Positions 44,850 through 54,294 of a stretch of 64,000 nucleotides of DNA are shown piece by piece; positions within the stretch are counted from its first letter, which is position 1, and every line of letters starts with the position of its first letter. Origin of the DNA: Gemmatimonadota bacterium (GTDB taxonomy: Bacteria > Gemmatimonadota > Gemmatimonadetes > Longimicrobiales > Gaopeijiaceae); contig JABDLS010000080.1 of NCBI GenBank assembly GCA_013002885.1, forward strand, positions 1 through 64,000, written 5' to 3'. The translations under genes were made by a program, and so were the position numbers. The notes under the pieces were generated by a model. It saw only the letters and a program-made list of their open reading frames with translations. It searched no databases and was not told the origin of the DNA.

Positions 44850-47800
44850 ATGGCCCGGTCGCCCCGCACAGCCGCCTCGACTCTCGCCCCGACCGCCTCG
44901 GCTCTCGGGACCGCTCTCATGCCTGCCGTCCTCGGAGCCGTCGGCGTGCTTCTGGCCACCGCCGTGGCGGTCGAGGCCCAGGCGGCAGACGACCGCCGTA
45001 CCAGGTTCCTGCGCCAACCCTCGGTGAGCGCCACCGAGATCACCTTCGTCCACGCCAACGACATCTGGATCGTGGGGCGCGATGGAGGAGAGGCTCGACG
45101 CCTCACGAGTGGGGAGGGCTCGGAGACCGATCCGGCCTTCAGCTTCGACGGTCGCTGGGTTGCCTTCACGGGAGAGTATGCCGGCGACCAGGACGTGTAT
45201 GTGGTGTCGGTCGATGGTGGACAGCCCCGTCGGCTGACCTGGCATCCGGGAGGGGACGTGGTACAGGGGTGGACGCCGGAGGGTGACGTCCTCTTCCGGT
45301 CGGACCGCACAGGTGTGCCCACGCGTCTTTGGACGTTCTACACGGTCCCGCCTGAAGGGGGTCTACCCGAAGCCCTCCCCATCCACCAGGCGTATCAAGG
45401 CGAGATGAGCGACGACGGATCACGGCTGGCGTATCAGGAGATTGGTCTCTGGGATCCCGAATGGCGGAACTACCGGGGCGGTCAGGCCCAGCCGGTGCGG
45501 GTGGTCTCACTGCCCTCTCTCGAACTGGACACGCCGCCGTGGGAAGGTGAGCGGCACCTCGACCCCACCTGGATGGACGGCGTCGTCTACTTCATGTCCG
45601 AGCGGGACTGGGCGAGCAACGTCTGGTCGTACGATCCGGCCACAGGTCAGGAGGAGCAGAAGACGTTCCACGTCGACTTCGACGTGAAGAGCCTTGATGC
45701 CGGCCACGGGGTCGTCGTCTACGAGCAGGGCGGCTACCTCCACGAACTCGATCCGGCGGCCGGAACCACGCGCCAGCTCGACATATTCGCCCGGGGCGAC
45801 CAGAACTGGGCGAGGGCACGTTGGGAGGAGGTCCCGGGCAACCAGCTACAAAACGCCCGCCTGTCCCCCACGGGCCAGCGGGCCCTCTTCGAGCATCGCG
45901 GGGAGATTTTCACGGTCCCGGTGGACGAGGGAAGCTGGCGCAACATCACCAACAGCCCGGGCGTCGCCGATCGACACCCCGTGTGGTCCCCTGACGGAAG
46001 TCACATCGCCTGGTTCAGCGACGAGGGGGGCGAGTATGGCCTGGTCATCGCCGATCAGCTCGGCCGCAATCCGCGGCGCATCGACATCGACGAGCCGTCC
46101 TTCTACTTCGTGCCCACCTGGTCTCCGGACGGATCGAAGGTCGCCTTTACCGATACTCACTACCGGGTCCTCGTCCTGGATGTGGCCTCCGGCGACGTGA
46201 CCCACGCAGACACCGACCGGTACGCCCATCCGGAGCGGACGATGAACCCGGTCTGGTCGCCGGACTCGCGCTACTTGGCCTACGCTCGCCGTCTCGACAC
46301 GCAGCTACGCGTCATCGTCGCCTACGACACGGAGACGGGTGAGCGCCACGAGCTCACCGATGGGATGGCCGACGCCATCGACCCGGTGTGGGATGCGTCG
46401 GGCGACTACCTCTACTTCCTGGCGTCGACGAATTACGGGTTGAACACCGGGTGGCTCGACATGACGTCGTACGACCGGCCGGTGACCCGCGCTCTGTACG
46501 TGGCGATTCTCGACGCCGATGGAACATCGCCCTTCGCGCCCCGCAGTGACGAGGAGGAGGGAGATGACAGCGTCGCGGAGAGAGGGCCTCAGGGTGGCGG
46601 AGGTGCGGCTTCCCGTGCTGGCGAGGGTGGGGGTGCCGGGGCCGACCAGGCCACGCCGCCCGACGTCCCGCTCGACGCCGCCGGCATGGCACAACGTATC
46701 GTGGCGGCCCCGGGCCTTCCTCTGCGTGACTACACCGGTCTCGTGGCCGGCCCCGAGGGCTACGTCTTCGTCCTGGAGAACGCTCCGGGTTCTCCAGGCT
46801 CCACCGTCCACCGATACGACTTCGATGAACAGGAGGCGTCGGAGTACGCGTCCGGCGTTACCAACGTGACCGTGTCCGAGGACCGTGGCTCACTCCTGCA
46901 TCGCTCAGGCTCCAGTTGGTCCGTTACGCCCACGTCCCAGGCTTCAGCTAGTGGTAGCGGCTCGGGAGACGGCGAGGGTCGCCTGAACGTCGGGAGTATG
47001 CGGGTGCGGGTCGAGCCCACCGCCGAATGGGCCCAGATGCTGCGTGACGGATGGCGGTTCATGCGGGACTTCCTCTACGTGGACAACCAGCATGGCGCGC
47101 CCTGGAGCGACGTCTGGTCGTGGTACTCGGCCTGGCTTCCCGACGTGGAGCATCGGTCCGACTTCAACCACCTGCTGGACATGATGTCCGGGGAGATCGC
47201 TGTTGGGCACTCCTACGTGCGAGGCGGGGACTACCCCGACCTCACCGACCCCCGGACGGGTCTCCTCGGTGCCGATCTGTCGGTGGTGGACGGCTGGTAC
47301 CGTATCGACCGGATCTACACGGGTGAGAGCTGGAATCCCGGACTTCGAGGTCCCCTGTCCCATCCGGGCATGGACGTCGACGAAGGGGATTGGCTGGTGG
47401 CCATCGATGGACAGGAGTTGAGGGCGCCGACCAACGTCTTCCAGCTCCTGGAGGGGGCGGCCGGCCGCGCCGTCACGGTGAGCGTCAACGACCGCCCGAG
47501 CCTGGACGGTGCACGCGACGTCGTCGTCGAGCCGGCGGGCAGTGAGGGGCAGCTCCGGAACTGGGCCTGGATCGAGGAGAATCGGCGCAAGGTCGATGAG
47601 ATGAGCGGCGGCCGCCTGGCCTACGTCTACGTGCCCAACACCGGCCAGGGTGGCTACACCTACTTCAACCGCATGTACTTCGCCCAGCAAGACAGGCAGG
47701 GAGCCGTCATCGATGAGCGCAACAACGGCGGCGGATCGGCTGCAGACTATATCGTCGACGTTCTGAACCGTGAGCTCACGGGGTACTTCAATTCACGAGC

Positions 47801-48239
47801 GGGTGATCGGAAGCCCTGGACGCAGCCCATGGCTGGGCTCTGGGGCCCGAAGGTCATGATCATCAACGAGCGAGCGGGGTCGGGTGGCGATCTCATGCCC
47901 TACCTCTTCCGCTTTCATGAGGTGGGTCCCCTGGTCGGCACACGTACCTGGGGTGGCCTCGTCGGGACATGGGACACGCCTCCCCTCCTCGACGGCGGCC
48001 GCTTCGTCGCGCCGCGCGGGGGCTTCATCGACGTCAATGGCGAGTGGGCGGTGGAGGCCGAGGGCGTGGCTCCCGACATTGAAGTCATGAACACGCCGAG
48101 GGCGGTAGCGGATGGCAGGGACCCGCAGCTCGAGGCCGCTGTGGCCGAGGCTTTGAGGCTTCTGGAAACTCGAGCAGTGGAGCTTCTTCCCGAGCCGGCC
48201 CCTCCAGTCCGGTACAGGAGGCCAGGCGGGGGTCGCTGA
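44850..48239 (+). CDS. Secreted tricorn-like protease (S41 family)
   Basis: A 1129-residue protein with the full tricorn plan: signal peptide (ends VEAQAAD, about residue 47), beta-propeller region to about 560 (blades with FSFDGRW, LSPTGQR, WSPDGSH, WSPDGSK), an acidic then Gly/Ala-rich linker near 560-600, a helical C1 region (WAQMLRDGWRFMRDF), GHSYVRGG with the catalytic His, a PDZ domain (VVDGWYRIDRIY to VAIDGQEL), and the S41 core with FNRMYFAQQD, DERNNGGGSAADYI and nucleophile Ser in INERAGSGGDLMPY. Tricorn degrades oligopeptides from larger proteases. Archaeal tricorn is cytoplasmic, whereas this one is exported. GGAG sits five bases before the ATG. Confidence 0.92.
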   Translation: MARSPRTAASTLAPTASALGTALMPAVLGAVGVLLATAVAVEAQAADDRRTRFLRQPSVSATEITFVHANDIWIVGRDGGEARRLTSGEGSETDPAFSFDGRWVAFTGEYAGDQDVYVVSVDGGQPRRLTWHPGGDVVQGWTPEGDVLFRSDRTGVPTRLWTFYTVPPEGGLPEALPIHQAYQGEMSDDGSRLAYQEIGLWDPEWRNYRGGQAQPVRVVSLPSLELDTPPWEGERHLDPTWMDGVVYFMSERDWASNVWSYDPATGQEEQKTFHVDFDVKSLDAGHGVVVYEQGGYLHELDPAAGTTRQLDIFARGDQNWARARWEEVPGNQLQNARLSPTGQRALFEHRGEIFTVPVDEGSWRNITNSPGVADRHPVWSPDGSHIAWFSDEGGEYGLVIADQLGRNPRRIDIDEPSFYFVPTWSPDGSKVAFTDTHYRVLVLDVASGDVTHADTDRYAHPERTMNPVWSPDSRYLAYARRLDTQLRVIVAYDTETGERHELTDGMADAIDPVWDASGDYLYFLASTNYGLNTGWLDMTSYDRPVTRALYVAILDADGTSPFAPRSDEEEGDDSVAERGPQGGGGAASRAGEGGGAGADQATPPDVPLDAAGMAQRIVAAPGLPLRDYTGLVAGPEGYVFVLENAPGSPGSTVHRYDFDEQEASEYASGVTNVTVSEDRGSLLHRSGSSWSVTPTSQASASGSGSGDGEGRLNVGSMRVRVEPTAEWAQMLRDGWRFMRDFLYVDNQHGAPWSDVWSWYSAWLPDVEHRSDFNHLLDMMSGEIAVGHSYVRGGDYPDLTDPRTGLLGADLSVVDGWYRIDRIYTGESWNPGLRGPLSHPGMDVDEGDWLVAIDGQELRAPTNVFQLLEGAAGRAVTVSVNDRPSLDGARDVVVEPAGSEGQLRNWAWIEENRRKVDEMSGGRLAYVYVPNTGQGGYTYFNRMYFAQQDRQGAVIDERNNGGGSAADYIVDVLNRELTGYFNSRAGDRKPWTQPMAGLWGPKVMIINERAGSGGDLMPYLFRFHEVGPLVGTRTWGGLVGTWDTPPLLDGGRFVAPRGGFIDVNGEWAVEAEGVAPDIEVMNTPRAVADGRDPQLEAAVAEALRLLETRAVELLPEPAPPVRYRRPGGGR

Positions 48240-48271: not shown

Positions 48272-48910
48272 CTAGCGGGCTGGCGCTACCCAGCTCAGGC
48301 CGACGGAGAGGGTCCACACGTCTCGCTCGGGGAAGCAGACCCCATCCGCGAGGCAGTCGCCTTGGAAGATCCGGTCGTATCGTGCTGAGAAGGCGGGTCT
48401 GAGAGGCCCGATGAAGGGTCGCAGACGCAGATCGAGGGCGCCGCCGAGGGTCGTCTCCTCGCCGCCTCCGGAGTCGAACTTCTCGCCGGACGTCATGTTC
48501 TCCAGGTGCTCGGTCTGCTGGGTGCGTCCCAGGTTCACCGCCAGATTCAGGTAGACGTCGGTGGGGTTGGGGAAGTCGTAGGACAGGCCGACGAACGCCA
48601 GCCGCATGGAGAACGACTGATCGAAGGGCCCGGGCGTGCACGTCGCGAAGTTGCAGTGCTGCGCGAGTTCGGCGCCGTCCTCGTAGAGTTGGCGCACTCC
48701 AGCGTGGATTCCAATGCGCCCCACCATGTTGGTCCGACCCATGGTCACGGAGAAGCCAACCGGGGAAGGCAGCGGATCGTCGGCGAAGCCCTGGTTCAGC
48801 GAGGCGTCGACGAAGAAGGCCTGGGCGGATGCCTCTTCCGGGCAGAGTGCGGGGAACACGGCGAGGAAGAGCACCACCATGGGGGCGGGCAGGGAGACAC
48901 GCGTCTGCAT
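48272..48910 (-). CDS. Outer-membrane beta-barrel-like hypothetical protein
   Basis: A 212-residue exported protein. The signal peptide is MQTRVSLPAPMVVLFLAVFPALC...ASAQ. The mature chain is made of alternating strands (FFVDASLNQGF, VGFSVTMGRTN, GRIGIHAGVRQLY, FSMRLAFVGLSYDF, VYLNLAVNLGRTQQT in outline) with a final aromatic-rich strand VWTLSVGLSWV, typical of an eight-stranded barrel. Two Cys pairs sit in loops (CNFATC and CLADGVC). No family is recognised. It stands between the tricorn-like gene (convergent) and the YncE-like gene (same strand). Confidence 0.65.
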   Translation of the reverse strand: MQTRVSLPAPMVVLFLAVFPALCPEEASAQAFFVDASLNQGFADDPLPSPVGFSVTMGRTNMVGRIGIHAGVRQLYEDGAELAQHCNFATCTPGPFDQSFSMRLAFVGLSYDFPNPTDVYLNLAVNLGRTQQTEHLENMTSGEKFDSGGGEETTLGGALDLRLRPFIGPLRPAFSARYDRIFQGDCLADGVCFPERDVWTLSVGLSWVAPAR

Positions 48911-49000: not shown

Positions 49001-50185
49001 CTAGGCCCCGGGTGTCTCCATCTTCCACACGTCGAGTCCGCCCGGCTGGTAGTGAAGCGCGGTACTGGCGGCCAGTTTCCCAGTGGCGAGGTCGATGACA
49101 TCGACCGTCCCCCGGGTGGCTCCGACGGCTTCGTTGGTCACAAATGCGTATCGCCCGTCCGGCGTCACCGCCACACCGTGGGTCACCGACTGGGTCGTCT
49201 CCACGACGTCGTGGTCACCCGTCGTCAGGTCGATGATGGCCACCGACGCTGCGCCCTTCCGGGTGACGACGAGGGTCGACCCGTCGGGAGTGATGTCGGC
49301 GTTGTACGGCGCACCGCCGACGTCGAATCGGCGGAGGACTTCCATGGACCCGGCGTCGATCTCCAGGACGTCACCGCGGCCGTTGCACGGCACGTAGATG
49401 CGGGTGTCGTCGGGGGAGAGGACGACCCATGTCGGCTTGCAGATGCCGGGGCTGGACATGTCCATGCTCGTGCGGCCCGGAGTGTCCATGGCGCCGTCGG
49501 AGCCCCTAGCGTCAGCAGCGCCCCCGGCCGCCCCCATGGCATGGCCGGCGTGCTCCATGGCCATAGGCCCTTCGTGCCCGGCAGTGAGCATCATGCGCCG
49601 CTCCACCCGGAAGCCCGACACGCTGGCCTCCACGAGCTGGTCGGACATCATGCACGTCGAGTAGTGACGGGTGCCGTCGGCGCTCACGCGACTCCCATGG
49701 GGCATGACGCACGTCTCGATCTGACTCACCTCCGACATGAACGGCGTGAAGACTGCCGAGACCGAACTCGGAATCGGATCGCCATGGAGGTTGAAGTTGA
49801 CCACGAAGAGCGACGCGCCGTCGGGCGTCGTGGCCATGGTGGCGGGGAAGAGCCCCACCATCGCCGTGTCCACCAGCTGATCGCTGCCGGTCTGCATCTT
49901 CCACACCTGGCCGTACGGCTGACCGTGGGCGATGGACACGTACCAGTGCTGCCCCGTGGGCGAGACGCGGATGCCGTGGGCGCCGTCCAGATCGGCCGGG
50001 TGAAAGCCCACGTCGATGGCCTTCTCCTCCACCACCGTCTCGCCGTCGAAGCGGATCAGCGAGACGATGTCTGACGACTCGTTGGCCACATAGGCCCAGT
50101 AGGTAGCCTGGGCTTCGGCTGTGGAGGGCGTGGCGGCGAGGGCAGCGGCGAGCGCCACCCCGGCCACCGAGCGTCGCGCGGTCAT
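49001..50185 (-). CDS. YncE-like (YVTN) beta-propeller with Met/His-rich insert
   Basis: A 394-residue periplasmic seven-bladed propeller. The signal peptide ends AEAQ (residue 26). Blades show the YVTN pattern: WAYVANESSDIVSL, FVVNFNLHG, IYVPCNGRGDVLEID, GGAPYNADITPDG and YAFVTNEAVG. Between blades, residues 198-249 form an insert rich in Met and His (HEGPMAMEHAGHAMG, then SMDMSSPGIC), of a kind that binds copper or silver in periplasmic proteins; Cys159, Cys178 and Cys249 could add ligands or disulfides. The ATG shares a base with the TGA of the LVIVD gene (TGATG), so both are made together. Function unknown; a metal-dependent partner role is inference. Confidence 0.82.
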   Translation of the reverse strand: MTARRSVAGVALAAALAATPSTAEAQATYWAYVANESSDIVSLIRFDGETVVEEKAIDVGFHPADLDGAHGIRVSPTGQHWYVSIAHGQPYGQVWKMQTGSDQLVDTAMVGLFPATMATTPDGASLFVVNFNLHGDPIPSSVSAVFTPFMSEVSQIETCVMPHGSRVSADGTRHYSTCMMSDQLVEASVSGFRVERRMMLTAGHEGPMAMEHAGHAMGAAGGAADARGSDGAMDTPGRTSMDMSSPGICKPTWVVLSPDDTRIYVPCNGRGDVLEIDAGSMEVLRRFDVGGAPYNADITPDGSTLVVTRKGAASVAIIDLTTGDHDVVETTQSVTHGVAVTPDGRYAFVTNEAVGATRGTVDVIDLATGKLAASTALHYQPGGLDVWKMETPGA

Positions 50186-52203
50186 CAGGTGATGGGCCTC
50201 GGCTTCACGTGCTTCAGCACCCAGAGCCCACTCGTCATGTCGCTCACGAAGAGGTTGCCCTTGAAGACCTGGGGGCCCCAGGCGTTGGCCGAGTTCGCCG
50301 CCAGCCCTTCGCCCTCGCCTGCCTCGGTACGGAAGAAGCCGATCTCGCGACCCTGCCGGTACAGGTCGCCGCGGAGCGTGCCGCTCACGTCGACGATGCG
50401 CAGACCGCCCTGGTAGTAGGCGATGTAGAGAACGTCGTCCTCGATCCAGACGTTGTGTGCGCCCGCTTCGGGGAGCTCGTACTTCGCAACTTCCTTCGGC
50501 TCGTCGATGTCGCTCACGTCGATGACGTGGATGTAACCGCGCATGCCGTCGGCCGTCCCGATCTCGTCACCCAGGAAGACGTAGTCCCGGTTGCGCCACG
50601 CCACGTGCGTGTTGCCCGCCGGGTAGCTGATGCTCGATACGAAGGCCGGGTTCGTCGGTGTGCCGCCGTGCGTGCCTGCGCCGACGTCGACGATGACCAG
50701 GCCGTCATCCCAGTACGAGAGGTAGGCGTATCCGTCCTCCGCCCAGACGTCGTGCAGCGACTTGTCCGTCTCGCCCGGGCGGATCTCGAAGCGGCCGGCG
50801 TGCTGCGGATTCGCCGGGTCGCTCATGTCGATGATGTTCATGGCGCTCGTGCCGTCGTTCACCGCGTACACGATGTCGCCCATGATCCAGACGTTGTGGA
50901 TGCCCGCCGTGAGCGAGTCGGTCAGCTCCGCCATGATCGTCGGGTGCGCCGGATCGGCCAGGTCCAGCACCACGATCCCGTTGCGCCGGCTGCTGGCGCC
51001 TTCGCGGGTGATGATGGCCCAGGTCGCGTCCTCGCTCACCTTCACGTCGTTCACCACGCGGGCGTCCACCACCACCGAATCCATCAGCTGGATGTTCTCG
51101 GGATCGGTGACCCTCCAGGCGAACATGCGCTCGCCGCCGCCCTGGGCGTGCGTGCCGGTGTAGGCGTAGTCCTCGCCGTCCACGCCCTCGAAGACCCAGA
51201 GGTCACTCGTCGCGACCTCGGAGCGGACGCCGTGGTCCAGCAGCTCGACGGGCTGCGGGTCCGGCCGATCCGTCACCTCGACGATGGCCGCCGCCGACGC
51301 CGTCCCCGAGCTCGCGATCACCCGGTACGGCCCCGTCTCCTCGGCGACGAACGTGCCGTCCTCGAAGACGAAGCCGCCTGTGCTCTCCATCCCCGACACC
51401 GCCAGGTCCAGCGCGATGTCGTCGATGACGCGGCCGCCTGCGTCGCGGGCCTGGATGTCGAAGGCCACCACGTCGCCCCGGCGGGTCTCCGTCGTCTCTG
51501 GCGACATGCTGATGGAGGTCACCGGGTTGGCGACCACCGACAGGGAGTGCTCGGCTCGCACGCCGTCCTGCGTCTCCGCGATCACCGTCACGCTGCCCGG
51601 CCGCATGCCTGTCACGATGCCGCCCCGTGTCACCATCGCTGTCGACGGGTTGGACGAACTCCATCGGATCGTCGCCGTCTCGTGCTCCGTTCCCTCCGTC
51701 GTGAGCACTTCGCCTTCCATCTGGATCGAGGTCCCCGTGTACGCTGTGTAGCCCGGCGCCGCGATGTCGATCGACGCCACAGGGTAGTCCAGCACCGTCA
51801 CGCTCAACTGACCCACCGGGCGGGCGCCGGCCACGCCGAAGACACCGGTCTCGTCTTCCGGGACCATGACGATGCCCATGGCCATCCCGTTGCCCGGGTT
51901 CATCCCGCGCAGTTCGACCGTCGGTCCTTCGATGGCCGAGAACGTCGGCCCCACGCCGCCCTGGGCGAAGACGAGGGCCACCGCGCCTTCCACGCGGTTA
52001 CCGTCCGCGTCGAAGAGCTCGGCGCCGATGGTGGCGGTCTCACCCCGCGGGATGGTCAGCTCTTCGGTGCCGAAGCGGACCTCGGTCACGCGGGCGCCGG
52101 CTTCGCGCTGCTCGGGTGTGGCGGGTGGGAACTGGGCCTGGAGGTCATGCGTGCCCAGGAGGGTCAGAGCGAGGAGGGCGAGGATGGGCGTGAGGTGGGT
52201 CAT
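50185..52203 (-). CDS. LVIVD-repeat propeller with Ig-like (BIG2) domains
   Basis: A 672-residue secreted protein. The signal peptide is MTHLTPILALLALTLLGTHDLQA. Residues of about 25-290 contain Ig-like modules: an N-terminal one (ETATIGAELFDADGNRV), a BIG2-like one (IQMEGEVLTTEGTEHETATIRWSSSNPSTAMV in outline), and a third (VAFDIQARDAGGRVID). From about 310 the chain is an LVIVD-type propeller: IVVLDLADPAHPTI, AMNIIDMSDPANPQ, GLVIVDVGAG, IHVIDVSDIDEPK, GLRIVDVSG and LWVLKHVKP. Such proteins are surface or periplasmic and often unstudied. The 178 codons of open frame before 52203 are not coding-like. It is coupled to the YncE-like gene. Confidence 0.82.
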   Translation of the reverse strand: MTHLTPILALLALTLLGTHDLQAQFPPATPEQREAGARVTEVRFGTEELTIPRGETATIGAELFDADGNRVEGAVALVFAQGGVGPTFSAIEGPTVELRGMNPGNGMAMGIVMVPEDETGVFGVAGARPVGQLSVTVLDYPVASIDIAAPGYTAYTGTSIQMEGEVLTTEGTEHETATIRWSSSNPSTAMVTRGGIVTGMRPGSVTVIAETQDGVRAEHSLSVVANPVTSISMSPETTETRRGDVVAFDIQARDAGGRVIDDIALDLAVSGMESTGGFVFEDGTFVAEETGPYRVIASSGTASAAAIVEVTDRPDPQPVELLDHGVRSEVATSDLWVFEGVDGEDYAYTGTHAQGGGERMFAWRVTDPENIQLMDSVVVDARVVNDVKVSEDATWAIITREGASSRRNGIVVLDLADPAHPTIMAELTDSLTAGIHNVWIMGDIVYAVNDGTSAMNIIDMSDPANPQHAGRFEIRPGETDKSLHDVWAEDGYAYLSYWDDGLVIVDVGAGTHGGTPTNPAFVSSISYPAGNTHVAWRNRDYVFLGDEIGTADGMRGYIHVIDVSDIDEPKEVAKYELPEAGAHNVWIEDDVLYIAYYQGGLRIVDVSGTLRGDLYRQGREIGFFRTEAGEGEGLAANSANAWGPQVFKGNLFVSDMTSGLWVLKHVKPRPIT

Positions 52204-53058
52204 GGGGCTGTCCGGGGTTCCTTCACGGGTGCAGGTGAGGCTGCGTCGATGCATCAAGAATCCAGGCGCGAAAGGTAGGGTGGAGAGGTAGGTGGGGCGA
52301 GGACCTGGGGCCTGGTTGCGGTAGTTCGACGCGCCCTCCAACATGCCGCTGCCTTCGAGGGTGCGCTCGCTCCTTCGGCGCCCGGCCCGCATGTTGTCCG
52401 CACGGTCGACATCTCGGCGGCATCCAAACCTCGAACGAGGAGAAACGGAAGCGCGGCGATAACGCCCGCGGTGCGCACGAGCGAGCACCACGTTGGCCAT
52501 CAGATGGTCGAGACGGGGGCCGAGCAATGGATCCTGATCTCCAACTACACCAGCAGCGCCGCGGCGGATGCGGCGAGAGGAATGGTGCGTGAACTCGTGG
52601 CTGGCATGAGCGAGAACTTTGGAATGAAGCTCGACGTCTTGGGTCAGGGCGAGGTCAGTCGGCAGGTCACATAGTCGGGAGGTCGTGGCCGCTCTACTCC
52701 TCGGTATCGCGCCGATCAGTGCCCCCACTTCCTCCACGCCGAGCAGCTCGTTAAGTGGATGTCAGGACGGGCCCGTGAGGATAAGGCGAGTGTGCAGTGT
52801 CCGCACGAGGGCCCTCGCGGGTGGGTGCGATGTCATGTTGGCGCGTGGGGACGGTGCCGCCATCGATCATGGAGCGGGTCTGTCGGGCGCTGGCCATCGC
52901 GGTCGGCTGCGAACGAAAGTAGGAGTCGGAACCTCCGCACCTCGGGCCAGCGCGCTGTGAGCCAGATGTTGGAACCCCCAACGGAAGCCTTGCCCCGTGC
53001 CCGCAACCTCCGGAGACTTCCACTCCGCGCGGACACCGACTCGCCCAGGAGATCATGA
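52204..53058. other. Gene-poor intergenic region
   Basis: About 855 bases without a convincing gene. The region must hold the promoters of the divergent LVIVD and transporter genes. An open frame at 52471-52674 on the plus strand is listed separately. I see no tRNA-like T-loop, no strong hairpin and no repeat; base composition is like the neighbours. Confidence 0.5.
52471..52674 (+). CDS. Possible small protein (67 aa), uncertain
   Basis: A short frame in the otherwise empty region. Its middle (GAEQWILISNYTSSAAADAARGMVRE in outline) looks like a strand followed by an amphipathic helix, which is more protein-like than the other open frames here, and it ends in a polar strand. There is no good ribosome binding site and no known family. 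It could also be the tail of a decayed gene. Confidence 0.2.
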   Translation: MRTSEHHVGHQMVETGAEQWILISNYTSSAAADAARGMVRELVAGMSENFGMKLDVLGQGEVSRQVT

Positions 53059-54294
53059 ATGACCGATGAGCAGGACGAAGGCACTGACGGATTGCTGAGC
53101 GACAAGCCCTCGGAGGTCCCGGGTACGGCCGCGTGGGAGGCTCCGAGCGGAGCCCCCTCCGACGCCTCCAGGGGCTCCCGCGGGAAAGGGCGTCCCCCCC
53201 GGATGCCCTCGGGCCCTCAAGTGCAGTTGGGCTTCCTGCTCATGGTCGTCATCGGCATCAGCCTGCTCTTCCTGGCGATGATCGGAAACTTCATCCTCAC
53301 TCTCATCCTTGCGGGCATTTTCGCCGGTATGGCTCGGCCCACCCACCTGTGGCTGGAGGACAAGCTCGGTCAGAAGCCGAGGATGGCCGCCATGTTTACC
53401 GTCTTCGCCCTGCTTCTGCTCATCCTGATCCCTCTGGCTGGGTTCCTCGCTCTCGTCTTGTCGCAGGCGGTCGACGTCAGCGACCAGGCCGGCCCGTGGA
53501 TCAGTGAGCAACTCAGCCGTTCGCCGGAGCTCTTTGCGTGGCTTCAGGCCCTGCCCCTGGTGGGGCCGATGGTGCCCGAGCAGAGCGAGTTGGTCGGTCG
53601 TGCGAGTGAACTCGTGACCCGGGCCGGCTCCTTCGTCATCAACAACCTCGGAGCCGCCACCACCGGAACCGTCGCGGTGTTCCTGCAGCTCTTCGTGATG
53701 TTGTACGCGATCTACTACTTCCTCATCGATGGCAAGGCGATCCTCGGCCGGATTCTCTACTACACGCCCCTCAAGGAAGAGGACGAGGAAAAGCTCGTCG
53801 AGCAGTTCGTATCGGTGACGCGGGCCACCATCAAAGGCTCCATTCTCGTGGGCCTGATCCAGGGTGGGCTGGCGGGGTCGGCCTTCTTCCTCCTCGGGCT
53901 GCCGGGCGCCGCCTTCTGGTCCACCGTCATGGCGGTCCTCTCCATCATCCCGGTCCTCGGCTCCGGCATCGTGTGGGCTCCGGCCTCCGTGATTCTGGTC
54001 CTGACGGGCCGCGCCGGCGCCGGCTTGTTCCTTGCCATCTGGGGACTCGTCGTCGTGGGCCTGGTCGACAACGTGCTCCGACCGCGGTTCGTGGGACGGG
54101 ACACCAAGATGCACGATCTTCTCGTGCTCCTTTCGACCTTCGGCGGCCTGGCCATGTTCGGCGTGGTGGGCTTCATGATCGGGCCCGTTGTCGGCGCCCT
54201 GTTTCTCACGGCCTGGAAGCTTTACGGGACCGCGTTCCAAGGGATGCTGCCTTCGGCGCCAGACTGGGCCGAGGAGGTCGTCGAGGAGGCGTAG
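53059..54294 (+). CDS. AI-2E family (PerM-type) membrane transporter
   Basis: A 411-residue inner-membrane protein. A 50-residue polar, disordered N-terminus is followed by about eight hydrophobic helices in the arrangement of the AI-2E/TqsA family: two helices at 56-90, two-part helix at 108-135, a soluble segment (WISEQLSRSPELFAW), then the conserved block VFLQLFVMLYAIYYFLIDG, VTRATIKGSILVGLIQGGLAG, AAFWSTVMAVLSIIPVLGS and DNVLRPRFVG. The family includes autoinducer-2 exporters and Na+/H+ antiporters, so the substrate cannot be named. AGGAG is upstream of the ATG at 53059; an ATG four bases earlier stops at once. It is convergent with the esterase gene. Confidence 0.88.
   Translation: MTDEQDEGTDGLLSDKPSEVPGTAAWEAPSGAPSDASRGSRGKGRPPRMPSGPQVQLGFLLMVVIGISLLFLAMIGNFILTLILAGIFAGMARPTHLWLEDKLGQKPRMAAMFTVFALLLLILIPLAGFLALVLSQAVDVSDQAGPWISEQLSRSPELFAWLQALPLVGPMVPEQSELVGRASELVTRAGSFVINNLGAATTGTVAVFLQLFVMLYAIYYFLIDGKAILGRILYYTPLKEEDEEKLVEQFVSVTRATIKGSILVGLIQGGLAGSAFFLLGLPGAAFWSTVMAVLSIIPVLGSGIVWAPASVILVLTGRAGAGLFLAIWGLVVVGLVDNVLRPRFVGRDTKMHDLLVLLSTFGGLAMFGVVGFMIGPVVGALFLTAWKLYGTAFQGMLPSAPDWAEEVVEEA

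Follow-up and report, generated by a model that had tools for sequence, protein, structure and literature searches.

Two linked propeller genes in Gemmatimonadota, one encoding a Met/His-rich loop

Two overlapping genes in a 64,000-nucleotide stretch of Gemmatimonadota DNA (contig JABDLS010000080.1 of assembly GCA_013002885.1, referred to below as the window) raise the question of what two propeller proteins encoded side by side might do together, and whether a metal is involved. A sequence-only reading of the locus had named the proteins an LVIVD propeller (L) and a YncE-like propeller (Y) with a Met/His-rich insert, and had proposed that they are made in equal amount and could form one undescribed, metal-linked complex.

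Two propellers encoded by overlapping genes

Both open reading frames and their overlap were borne out on the minus strand. The L gene (50185..52203) encodes 672 amino acids counted from an ATG, with the mechanical open reading frame extending upstream to a GTG at 52737, and the Y gene (49001..50185) encodes 394 amino acids from an ATG start. At the junction, TGATG (50183..50187, read 50187-50183 on the minus strand), the stop codon of L and the start codon of Y have one base in common; the same in-frame overlap is present in 13 of 30 other same-strand L/Y pairs. Production in equal amount is not implied by a one-base overlap.

L is a probably secreted LVIVD/choice-of-anchor-B propeller with N-terminal Ig-like domains. 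Its LVIVD label proved correct (PF08309, 57.1 bits against a cut-off of 20.2; TIGR04312, 102.6 bits against a cut-off of 100), and a Big_2 Ig-like domain was found at residues 142-215 (51559..51780, minus strand; PF02368, 31.7 bits). From the AF2 model (mean pLDDT 88.2) and the alignment, the propeller covers about residues 316-668 (50200..51258, minus strand). The portions of the literature cited here describe LVIVD propellers as surface proteins and state no function for them (PMC2447325; PMC6315138).

Y is a probably secreted seven-bladed propeller of the YVTN/lactonase type, modeled by AF2 at a mean pLDDT of 87.8 and with the propeller reaching residue 390 of 394. It matches the lactonase superfamily PF10282 at 32.7 bits against a gathering cut-off of 21.7, with no single stretch passing alone. 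The term YncE-like holds for the fold and not for the family, since Y reached 19.4 of the 27.1 bits needed for PF21783 and 14.8 of 400 for NF052280. A probable signal peptide was read from the sequence at about residues 1-26 (50108..50185, minus strand), and 17 of 45 homologous N-termini fit a crude lipobox pattern instead. From N-termini read by eye and this pattern, L and Y are probably exported or secreted.

Several named propeller families were considered for Y and rejected. The match to the hydrazine synthase beta subunit (NF052340) reached 72.9 of 560 bits, that to L-NosZ (clade III nitrous oxide reductase) reached 41.2 of 700 bits, and those to PQQ-associated propellers fell far below cut-offs. 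L-NosZ matches at E 1e-30 were obtained in 42 of 121 genomes of the phylum, none of them above the cut-off, and the window genome gave no match at that threshold. Nor does Y fit nitrous oxide reductase in general: where CuZ has seven His ligands, the 45 aligned rows show four His that never vary and one that rarely does, and Y is without the C-terminal CuA cupredoxin domain, the Pfam scan returning no cupredoxin family.

Linkage and neighborhood of the pair

The possibility that the genes are unlinked elsewhere, which would have weakened the proposal, is contradicted by the loci compared. At 56 of 69 distinct Y loci an L gene is present within 1.5 kb (widest gap, 1403 bases), a count that does not describe a random sample because part of these loci were picked for having no L listed nearby. 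The remaining 13 lack L, and 4 of them have a flank shorter than 3 kb on one side. The 69 include L042, which belongs to a record titled Acidimicrobiia and not to Gemmatimonadota. In a presumed second phylum, L lies within 4 kb of Y in 10/10 loci, drawn from 9 of 11 matching genomes; of the remaining two, one is the centre genome (L042) and one gave a partial match. Loci L135 and L137 come from one genome and are nearly the same, L137 containing unread bases. Chance linkage would amount to a few per cent, as estimated from the 13 L matches in the window's own 4.0-Mb genome; genomes near the window hold between 0 and 21 such matches. When paralogues were matched, the best-matching Y and L agreed in 131 of 176 comparisons, where 77.2 agreements were expected. 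For Y itself, 123 of the phylum's 298 genomes gave no match at E 1e-40.

Flanking open reading frames were compared all against all at 16 loci, comprising the window and 15 others, and no larger common operon emerged: apart from overlapping antisense frames, nothing but L and Y occurred in more than 5 of the 16, while some flanking gene families recurred in 5 close relatives. Nothing in the neighborhood of these 16 loci points to a metal; in VIA-align, a missing family was given no evidential weight. No common substitute partner appeared at the 13 Y loci without L, where ten recurrent open reading frames were scanned; six had no Pfam match and the others were signal peptidase II (L054), QRPTase_N (L048 and L055), and a beta-lactamase-family protein (L062). 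Simple scans found no promoter, terminator, or inverted repeat next to the pair, and no open reading frame of the scanned loci matched both profiles as an L-Y fusion would. That L and Y may form one complex is suggested by their co-inheritance.

The loop and the conserved face of Y

The Met/His-rich disordered loop of Y spans residues 206-248 (49442..49570, minus strand), connecting strand d to strand a between two well-predicted blades, with pLDDT below 50 at residues 218-239 of the model. The two segments singled out by the sequence-only reading, HEGPMAMEHAGHAMG and SMDMSSPGIC, are residues 204-218 and 240-249. The richness is real and beyond chance: His and Met make up 18.6% of the loop, a level reached by 0 of 164 linker-like control segments, whose genes were chosen by length and GC content by codon position rather than by annotation. 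Among 62 distinct homologous loops, 51 lie above the 95th percentile of the controls for H+M. H+M make up 16.7% of the Y loops but 5.4% of the protein cores, and close spacing of these residues is more frequent than in shuffled loops (199 versus 146, sd 7). The set of 62 excludes 14 duplicates and 8 rows in which the anchor was missing, and L085, at a contig end, belongs to neither set. The 8 anchorless rows were re-examined; three were mis-anchored and hence read by eye. Among seven distinct loops outside the anchor pattern, all read by eye, L068, L073, and L080 are rich and L026, L039, L059, and L066 are not.

Richness is widespread but not universal. At 60% identity, 14 of 18 clusters have a median H+M fraction above 0.111 (three single-row clusters being mis-anchored), and the loops of L133 to L137, from the presumed second phylum, again read as rich. 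Eleven of the 62 loops, together with four of the seven missed ones, do not exceed the control threshold, and two of the 62, plus L066, contain no His or Met at all. Loop length ranges from 14 to 78 residues, and both sequence and length drift. Absence of the insert from most orthologues, which would have counted against the proposal, is thus not seen across the family, where 48 of 62 loops have at least 25 residues; in the window's own close cluster, however, only 4 of 14 loops are that long, although 10 of 14 are H/M rich. The loop is missing from L138, L139, and six remote paralogues, every one of which adjoins an L gene. We infer that the loop is an accessory element of which the composition, and not the sequence, is retained. 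That it is an ordinary flexible linker in which Met and His do nothing for metal (the sequence being relaxed, or Met serving as an oxidant sink), the genes being linked for expression only, would suit the unconserved sequence and length and the members without a loop or without His or Met, but is unlikely given that richness persists across most clusters and, by reading, in the presumed second phylum, while linker-like segments of other genes at the same loci average 4.8% H+M.

In the 45-row alignment A1, five His residues of Y stand out: H70 (49976..49978), H87 (49925..49927), H163 (49697..49699), and H336 (49178..49180) are present in 45/45 rows and H134 (49784..49786) in 44/45, all coordinates being on the minus strand. 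Four Cys are likewise found in 45/45 rows and would form two disulfides in consecutive blades, C159 with C178 (49652..49711, minus strand) and C249 with C267 (49385..49441, minus strand). In the model, invariant positions are concentrated on the top face (38/166, versus 7/154 on the bottom face; p 1.5e-6), a test that rests on the predicted model and on an inner strand, residues 250-256, assigned manually where the model has no more than short bridges. All 11 His, Cys, and Met positions conserved in at least 90% of rows lie on this top face, as does the loop.

The Cys behave as pairs in distant relatives. In the six remote paralogues, C159 and C178 are kept in 6/6 and C249 and C267 are both absent in 6/6, counts that are not frequencies because these pairs were picked for having neighboring matches in both searches. 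In L133 to L139 all four Cys are replaced (C249 is unread in L137), whereas H70 and H163 are retained throughout both groups. These joint losses suggest two structural disulfides among the four Cys and leave the histidines as the candidate metal site; a role of the Cys in that site was dropped since they are lost pairwise.

Candidate roles and known systems

L and Y constitute a co-inherited, conserved two-propeller module that probably handles metal. No such pair was found in the open-licence literature, where papers on Gemmatimonadota propellers and on YncE, copper, or methionine-rich propellers yielded nothing on one, in agreement with its earlier description as undescribed. The proposed link to metal is supported by the composition of the loop, the placement of the loop and the conserved His on one face of the predicted model, and the analogy to copper propellers; loopless members still paired with L count against it. 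The reading we tentatively prefer is that of an exported pair in which the five His of Y would make up a ligand site where the central channel opens, its most likely occupant being a transition metal (copper ahead of zinc). The loop would be a flexible Met/His hook that gathers metal and passes it to this site or protects the site. L would be the physical partner of Y and may add a second center, hydrolase-like or ligand binding, as it carries a His4/Glu3/Asp constellation of its own and its nearest solved relative is a propeller of the metallohydrolase type. Such a reading turns an anonymous LVIVD family into a concrete metal-protein hypothesis through a conserved partner, two residue constellations, and a compositionally conserved loop, and the natural loopless Y members offer built-in controls. 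A bolder form of it is improbable: that L and Y are one exported heteromeric metalloenzyme of ancient origin, retained in Gemmatimonadota and in one or more further phyla. Its two His-lined propellers would face each other; Y would hold a copper or other metal center, loaded by the evolving loop, with ligands of a kind unlike those of nitrous oxide reductase and thiocyanate dehydrogenase, and L would hold a second metal center.

The constellation in L comprises H436, H484, H533, H583, E401, E547, E620, N385, and D386, each present in 55 to 56 of 57 paired rows with gaps in the remainder, and by reading of the model the four His lie on successive inner strands. Most of nine L proteins that do not adjoin a close Y homologue have the same set, which is therefore not specific to the pair. 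One of the nine, L147, turned out to adjoin a remote Y-like gene; the three from the window's own genome, which has a single Y match, are the only ones known to be without a Y partner. These residues would also suit an arrangement in which L is an enzyme of the Sphingobium phosphotriesterase kind, Y its structural or chaperone partner, and the loop a means of delivering metal to L. The two entries 5hrm and 5ioj of the haloalkylphosphorus hydrolase of Sphingobium sp. TCM1 are the sole relatives of the L propeller among PDB sequences at E 1, and by structure 5hrm ranks first (Z 34.5, rmsd 2.6, 332 aligned residues, 18% identity). Yet the sequence match is fragmentary and at the level of the LVIVD repeat (E 7.9e-5), WD40 proteins reach a Z of 33.8, level with rank 1, and we regard this arrangement as doubtful. 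A Foldseek search with the whole L model gave many matches to Ig-like and other multidomain proteins. To our knowledge, the Sphingobium hydrolase has no Y-like partner. Its binuclear metal center in a seven-bladed propeller is described in a title cited in PMC11656708.

It is also rather unlikely that the two proteins are a surface capture pair, Y keeping a small ligand, such as a corrinoid or another metal complex, inside its central cavity before passing it on in the manner of the Bacteroides surface lipoproteins BtuG (BtuG2 and BT2095), L serving as co-receptor or adhesin and the loop doing no more than tune capture. For BtuG we know of no LVIVD propeller partner. Foldseek placed BT2095 with cyanocobalamin (8okv) at rank 18 for Y, and the lipobox-like N-termini of Y homologues would fit a surface location. 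According to the section cited, BtuG2, like Y a seven-bladed propeller, binds corrinoids within its central cavity, and it cooperates with a TonB-dependent transporter (PMC10404256). The sequence similarity of Y to BtuG-type chains is weak, however (8okv_B, E 0.028), and with no gene besides L recurring in more than 5 of 16 loci no conserved transporter is seen, although in the window an AI-2E family transporter (53059-54294) lies divergent to the pair.

Returning to the preferred reading of Y as a metal-binding propeller, its best PDB match, by structure and by sequence, is 1l0q, an archaeal surface-layer YVTN propeller (Z 41.8, rmsd 1.8, 295 aligned residues, 27% identity). Unlike Y, it has no His at the positions of H70, H163, and H336 in the aligned segments, and no Met/His loop was seen in it. 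Among the best matches after it is the nitrous oxide reductase 1qni (Z 36.7, rmsd 3.1, 315 aligned residues), with Z scores of this kind tied with those of propellers such as 6-phosphogluconolactonase (37.6); thiocyanate dehydrogenase 8q9x gave a Z of 35.3 (rmsd 5.3, 338 aligned residues, 12% identity). In the portion of the source cited, nitrous oxide reductase (1qni, 9f8x) is a seven-bladed propeller whose hub metal is held by His, with seven His ligands from six blades, and carries a CuA cupredoxin domain (PMC11573801), whereas Y offers five near-invariant His and has no further domain after the propeller. Thiocyanate dehydrogenase (8q9x, 5f75), described in the cited part of its source as a seven-bladed propeller with three copper ions in a central tunnel (PMC9456337), resembles Y by fold and by a weak profile match (E 0.003 to 0.013) but is larger, at about 470 residues. 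A Deinococcus Cu/Zn-SOD-propeller fusion was set aside as a parallel, its propeller being six-bladed and calcium binding in the passage cited (PMC12362111). With the copper enzymes Y has the fold in common and probably not the ligand set. Flexible Met- or His-rich copper-binding segments near a metal site, to which the loop of Y would compare, occur in CueO and SilE, whose folds are unrelated.

An overlapping pair of propeller genes

Two minus-strand genes fill positions 49001-52203 of the window. The first (50185-52203) encodes a 672-aa protein, here referred to as L, with Ig-like domains (Big_2) and an LVIVD propeller, and the second (49001-50185) encodes Y, a 394-aa lactonase/YVTN-type propeller. 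The two genes meet in a TGATG at 50187-50183. The sequence-only reading had described both genes, this junction, and two peptides from a Met/His-rich insert, and all of these facts were borne out on re-reading, with the peptides corresponding to Y residues 204-218 and 240-249. Judging from signals read by eye, both proteins are probably exported. A gene on the strand of Y, 90 nt farther downstream (48272-48910, minus), encodes a 212-aa protein with a signal-like N terminus; this protein had no Pfam or NCBIfam match and was absent from the families recurring across the other compared loci. By eye, it reads like a small outer-membrane barrel. A Tricorn-type protease (44850-48239, plus; PD40, Tricorn_C1, PDZ_Tricorn, and Peptidase_S41) is also encoded near the pair.

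Linkage of Y to L across genomes

The window corresponds to contig C42 of a 4.0-Mb draft genome that is 89% complete. A pattern scan of an 84,980-species collection returned close relatives of Y at 15 loci (14 in Gemmatimonadota-type records and 1 in an Acidimicrobiia-titled record), and among 298 genomes belonging to the window's phylum, a family profile (E 1e-40) detected Y in 175 and not in the other 123. We assessed linkage by profile search of fetched loci, with flanks of about 6 kb (shorter at contig ends and 1.5 kb in some loci). With the window excluded, there were 69 distinct Y genes, one of them at the Acidimicrobiia-titled locus L042; 56 had an LVIVD gene beside them, and the largest gap between L and Y domains among the linked loci was 1403 bases. 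Because the window's genome contains at least 13 L matches in 4.0 Mb (among 20 of 31 candidates scored), we estimate that chance adjacency would account for a few per cent. LVIVD proteins are numerous in these genomes, ranging from 0 to at least 21 per genome in relatives, compared with at least 13 in the window's genome (E 0.001; scored candidates up to 20 per genome).

When same-strand gaps of zero or below were scored as L upstream, 29 of the 56 linked loci had L just upstream of Y and 1 had it downstream, in each case with both genes on one strand; the genes were divergent in 13 loci and convergent in 13. An in-frame TGATG was common to 13 of the 30 same-strand pairs. For nine genomes that each carry at least two pairs, we identified the most similar Y and the most similar L in another genome; these came from a single pair in 131 of 176 comparisons, which are not independent of one another, versus 77.2 expected. 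L and Y therefore tend to be duplicated and inherited together. The remaining 13 Y loci lacked L, and in 4 of these one flank was shorter than 3 kb. Six of the 13 (L049, L050, L051, L054, L055, and L057) have one neighbor family in common, signal peptidase II in L054, as if Y had stayed put once it was separated from L.

Y was also present (E 1e-40) in 11 of 99 sampled genomes of the phylum around the Acidimicrobiia-titled genome, which we take to be a different phylum because these genomes share none with the window's phylum set. All 10 loci obtained from 9 of these 11 genomes have an L gene near Y. In seven (L133-L139), L immediately precedes Y in the same orientation (in L135, L is a 67-bit fragment where the contig begins); in the other three, it lies 1.2 to 4.0 kb away. 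Six remote, loop-less Y-like paralogues (L147 and L149-L153; scores of 102-128 bits against the Y profile) also lie directly downstream of an L gene, which suggests that LVIVD-propeller pairing is a broader recurring module.

Composition of the Met/His-rich loop

Across 62 distinct Y proteins, the segment leading up to a conserved C-x-P-T-W ranged from 14 to 78 residues (at least 25 in 48), could hardly be aligned, and contained 16.7% His plus Met, versus 5.4% in the protein core. As a control, we drew 164 linker-like segments of 36 residues from 351 other genes in these loci; their His plus Met content averaged 4.8%, with a 95th percentile of 11.1% and a maximum of 16.7%. This 95th percentile was exceeded by 51 of the 62 loops. 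Met was dominant in 31 loops and His in 26 (5 were tied), and these residues were spaced more closely than in shuffles (199 versus 146; sd, 7). The anchor pattern missed eight Y rows, seven of them distinct, of which three were rich by reading and four were not. Within the window's own cluster (n = 14), His plus Met was above 0.111 in 10 loops and only 4 were at least 25 residues long; five close relatives have a 19-residue loop retaining MDM. As judged from these protein sequences, the composition of the loop is conserved and its sequence and length are not. The loop is missing in L138, L139, and the six remote paralogues, each with an adjacent L, so it is an add-on that cannot be essential to pairing.

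Conserved residues and a proposed role

AlphaFold2 modeling of Y (45 rows) predicted a seven-bladed propeller with confidence (mean pLDDT, 87.8); pLDDT was below 50 at loop residues 218-239. When residues were assigned to the two faces from the strands of this model, invariant positions were concentrated on one side: the d-a/b-c face had 38 among 166 positions and the opposite face 7 among 154 (Fisher p 1.5e-6, with alignment columns taken as independent). All 11 His, Cys, and Met residues kept in at least 90% of rows (H70, H87, H134, H163, H336, C159, C178, C249, C267, M161, and M179) sit on the d-a/b-c face, where the loop is also inserted. In the second phylum, all four cysteines were retained in L130-L132 and replaced in L133-L139 (C249 of L137 was unread); the six remote paralogues had C159 and C178 in 6/6 and C249 and C267 in 0/6. 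Such pairwise loss is the pattern that two disulfides would show, and we infer putative C159/C178 and C249/C267 bonds; with the cysteines read in this way, the histidines become the candidate functional site. H70, H87, H163, and H336 were found in 10/10 second-phylum proteins and H134 in 9/10, and the remote paralogues had H70 and H163 in 6/6, H87 and H336 in 5/6, and H134 in 0/6.

In the L propeller, H436, H484, H533, H583, E401, E547, E620, N385, and D386 were present in 55 or 56 of 57 paired rows (the rest being gaps) and in 10/10 second-phylum rows. Each was also present in 8 or 9 of nine L proteins with no close Y homologue beside them, one of which adjoins a remote Y-like gene. This residue set is a family-wide site rather than a pair-specific one. 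The sole PDB sequence relatives of the L propeller at E 1 were two haloalkylphosphorus hydrolase entries, and this enzyme was also the top structural match (Z 34.5, with WD40 proteins within 1). An LVIVD-repeat family is named in a table note about Methanosarcina barkeri genes whose expression rose twofold or more in direct interspecies electron transfer (PMC6315138), a mention that is a possible lead to the function of such propellers.

Separately, Gemmatimonadota proteins from locus L116 (G070:C1:695448-696407) and 41 further genomes match the L-NosZ profile far under its cut-off (best score, 173.7 of 700 bits) and may belong to a so far unnamed group related to lactonase-type nitrous oxide reductase.

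The linkage, the gene overlap, the loop composition, and, in the model, the concentration of conserved residues on one face are observations. Most likely, L and Y are exported and associate physically as a module; Y would hold a metal or metal complex at its His face and the loop would help collect it. Export, the disulfides, metal binding by Y, the L-Y complex, and a role for L are all putative. Open-licence literature on LVIVD, choice-of-anchor B, Gemmatimonadota propellers, and YncE, copper, or methionine-rich propellers yielded no paper on the pair.

The best structural match of the Y model was 1l0q (Z 41.8), followed by 6-phosphogluconolactonase-type proteins and a designed propeller (Z 37.5-37.6); nitrous oxide reductases matched with Z 34.9-36.8 at rmsd 2.5-3.3, and thiocyanate dehydrogenases with Z 33.9-35.3 at rmsd 2.8-5.4. 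Equally scoring propellers include some that, to our knowledge, are not metal proteins, and the likeness of Y to the copper enzymes is therefore an analogy. Passages in two papers describe copper held at the propeller hub of nitrous oxide reductase (PMC11573801) and thiocyanate dehydrogenase (PMC9456337). From two considerations only, this fold analogy and the Met and His composition, copper would be the candidate metal of Y.
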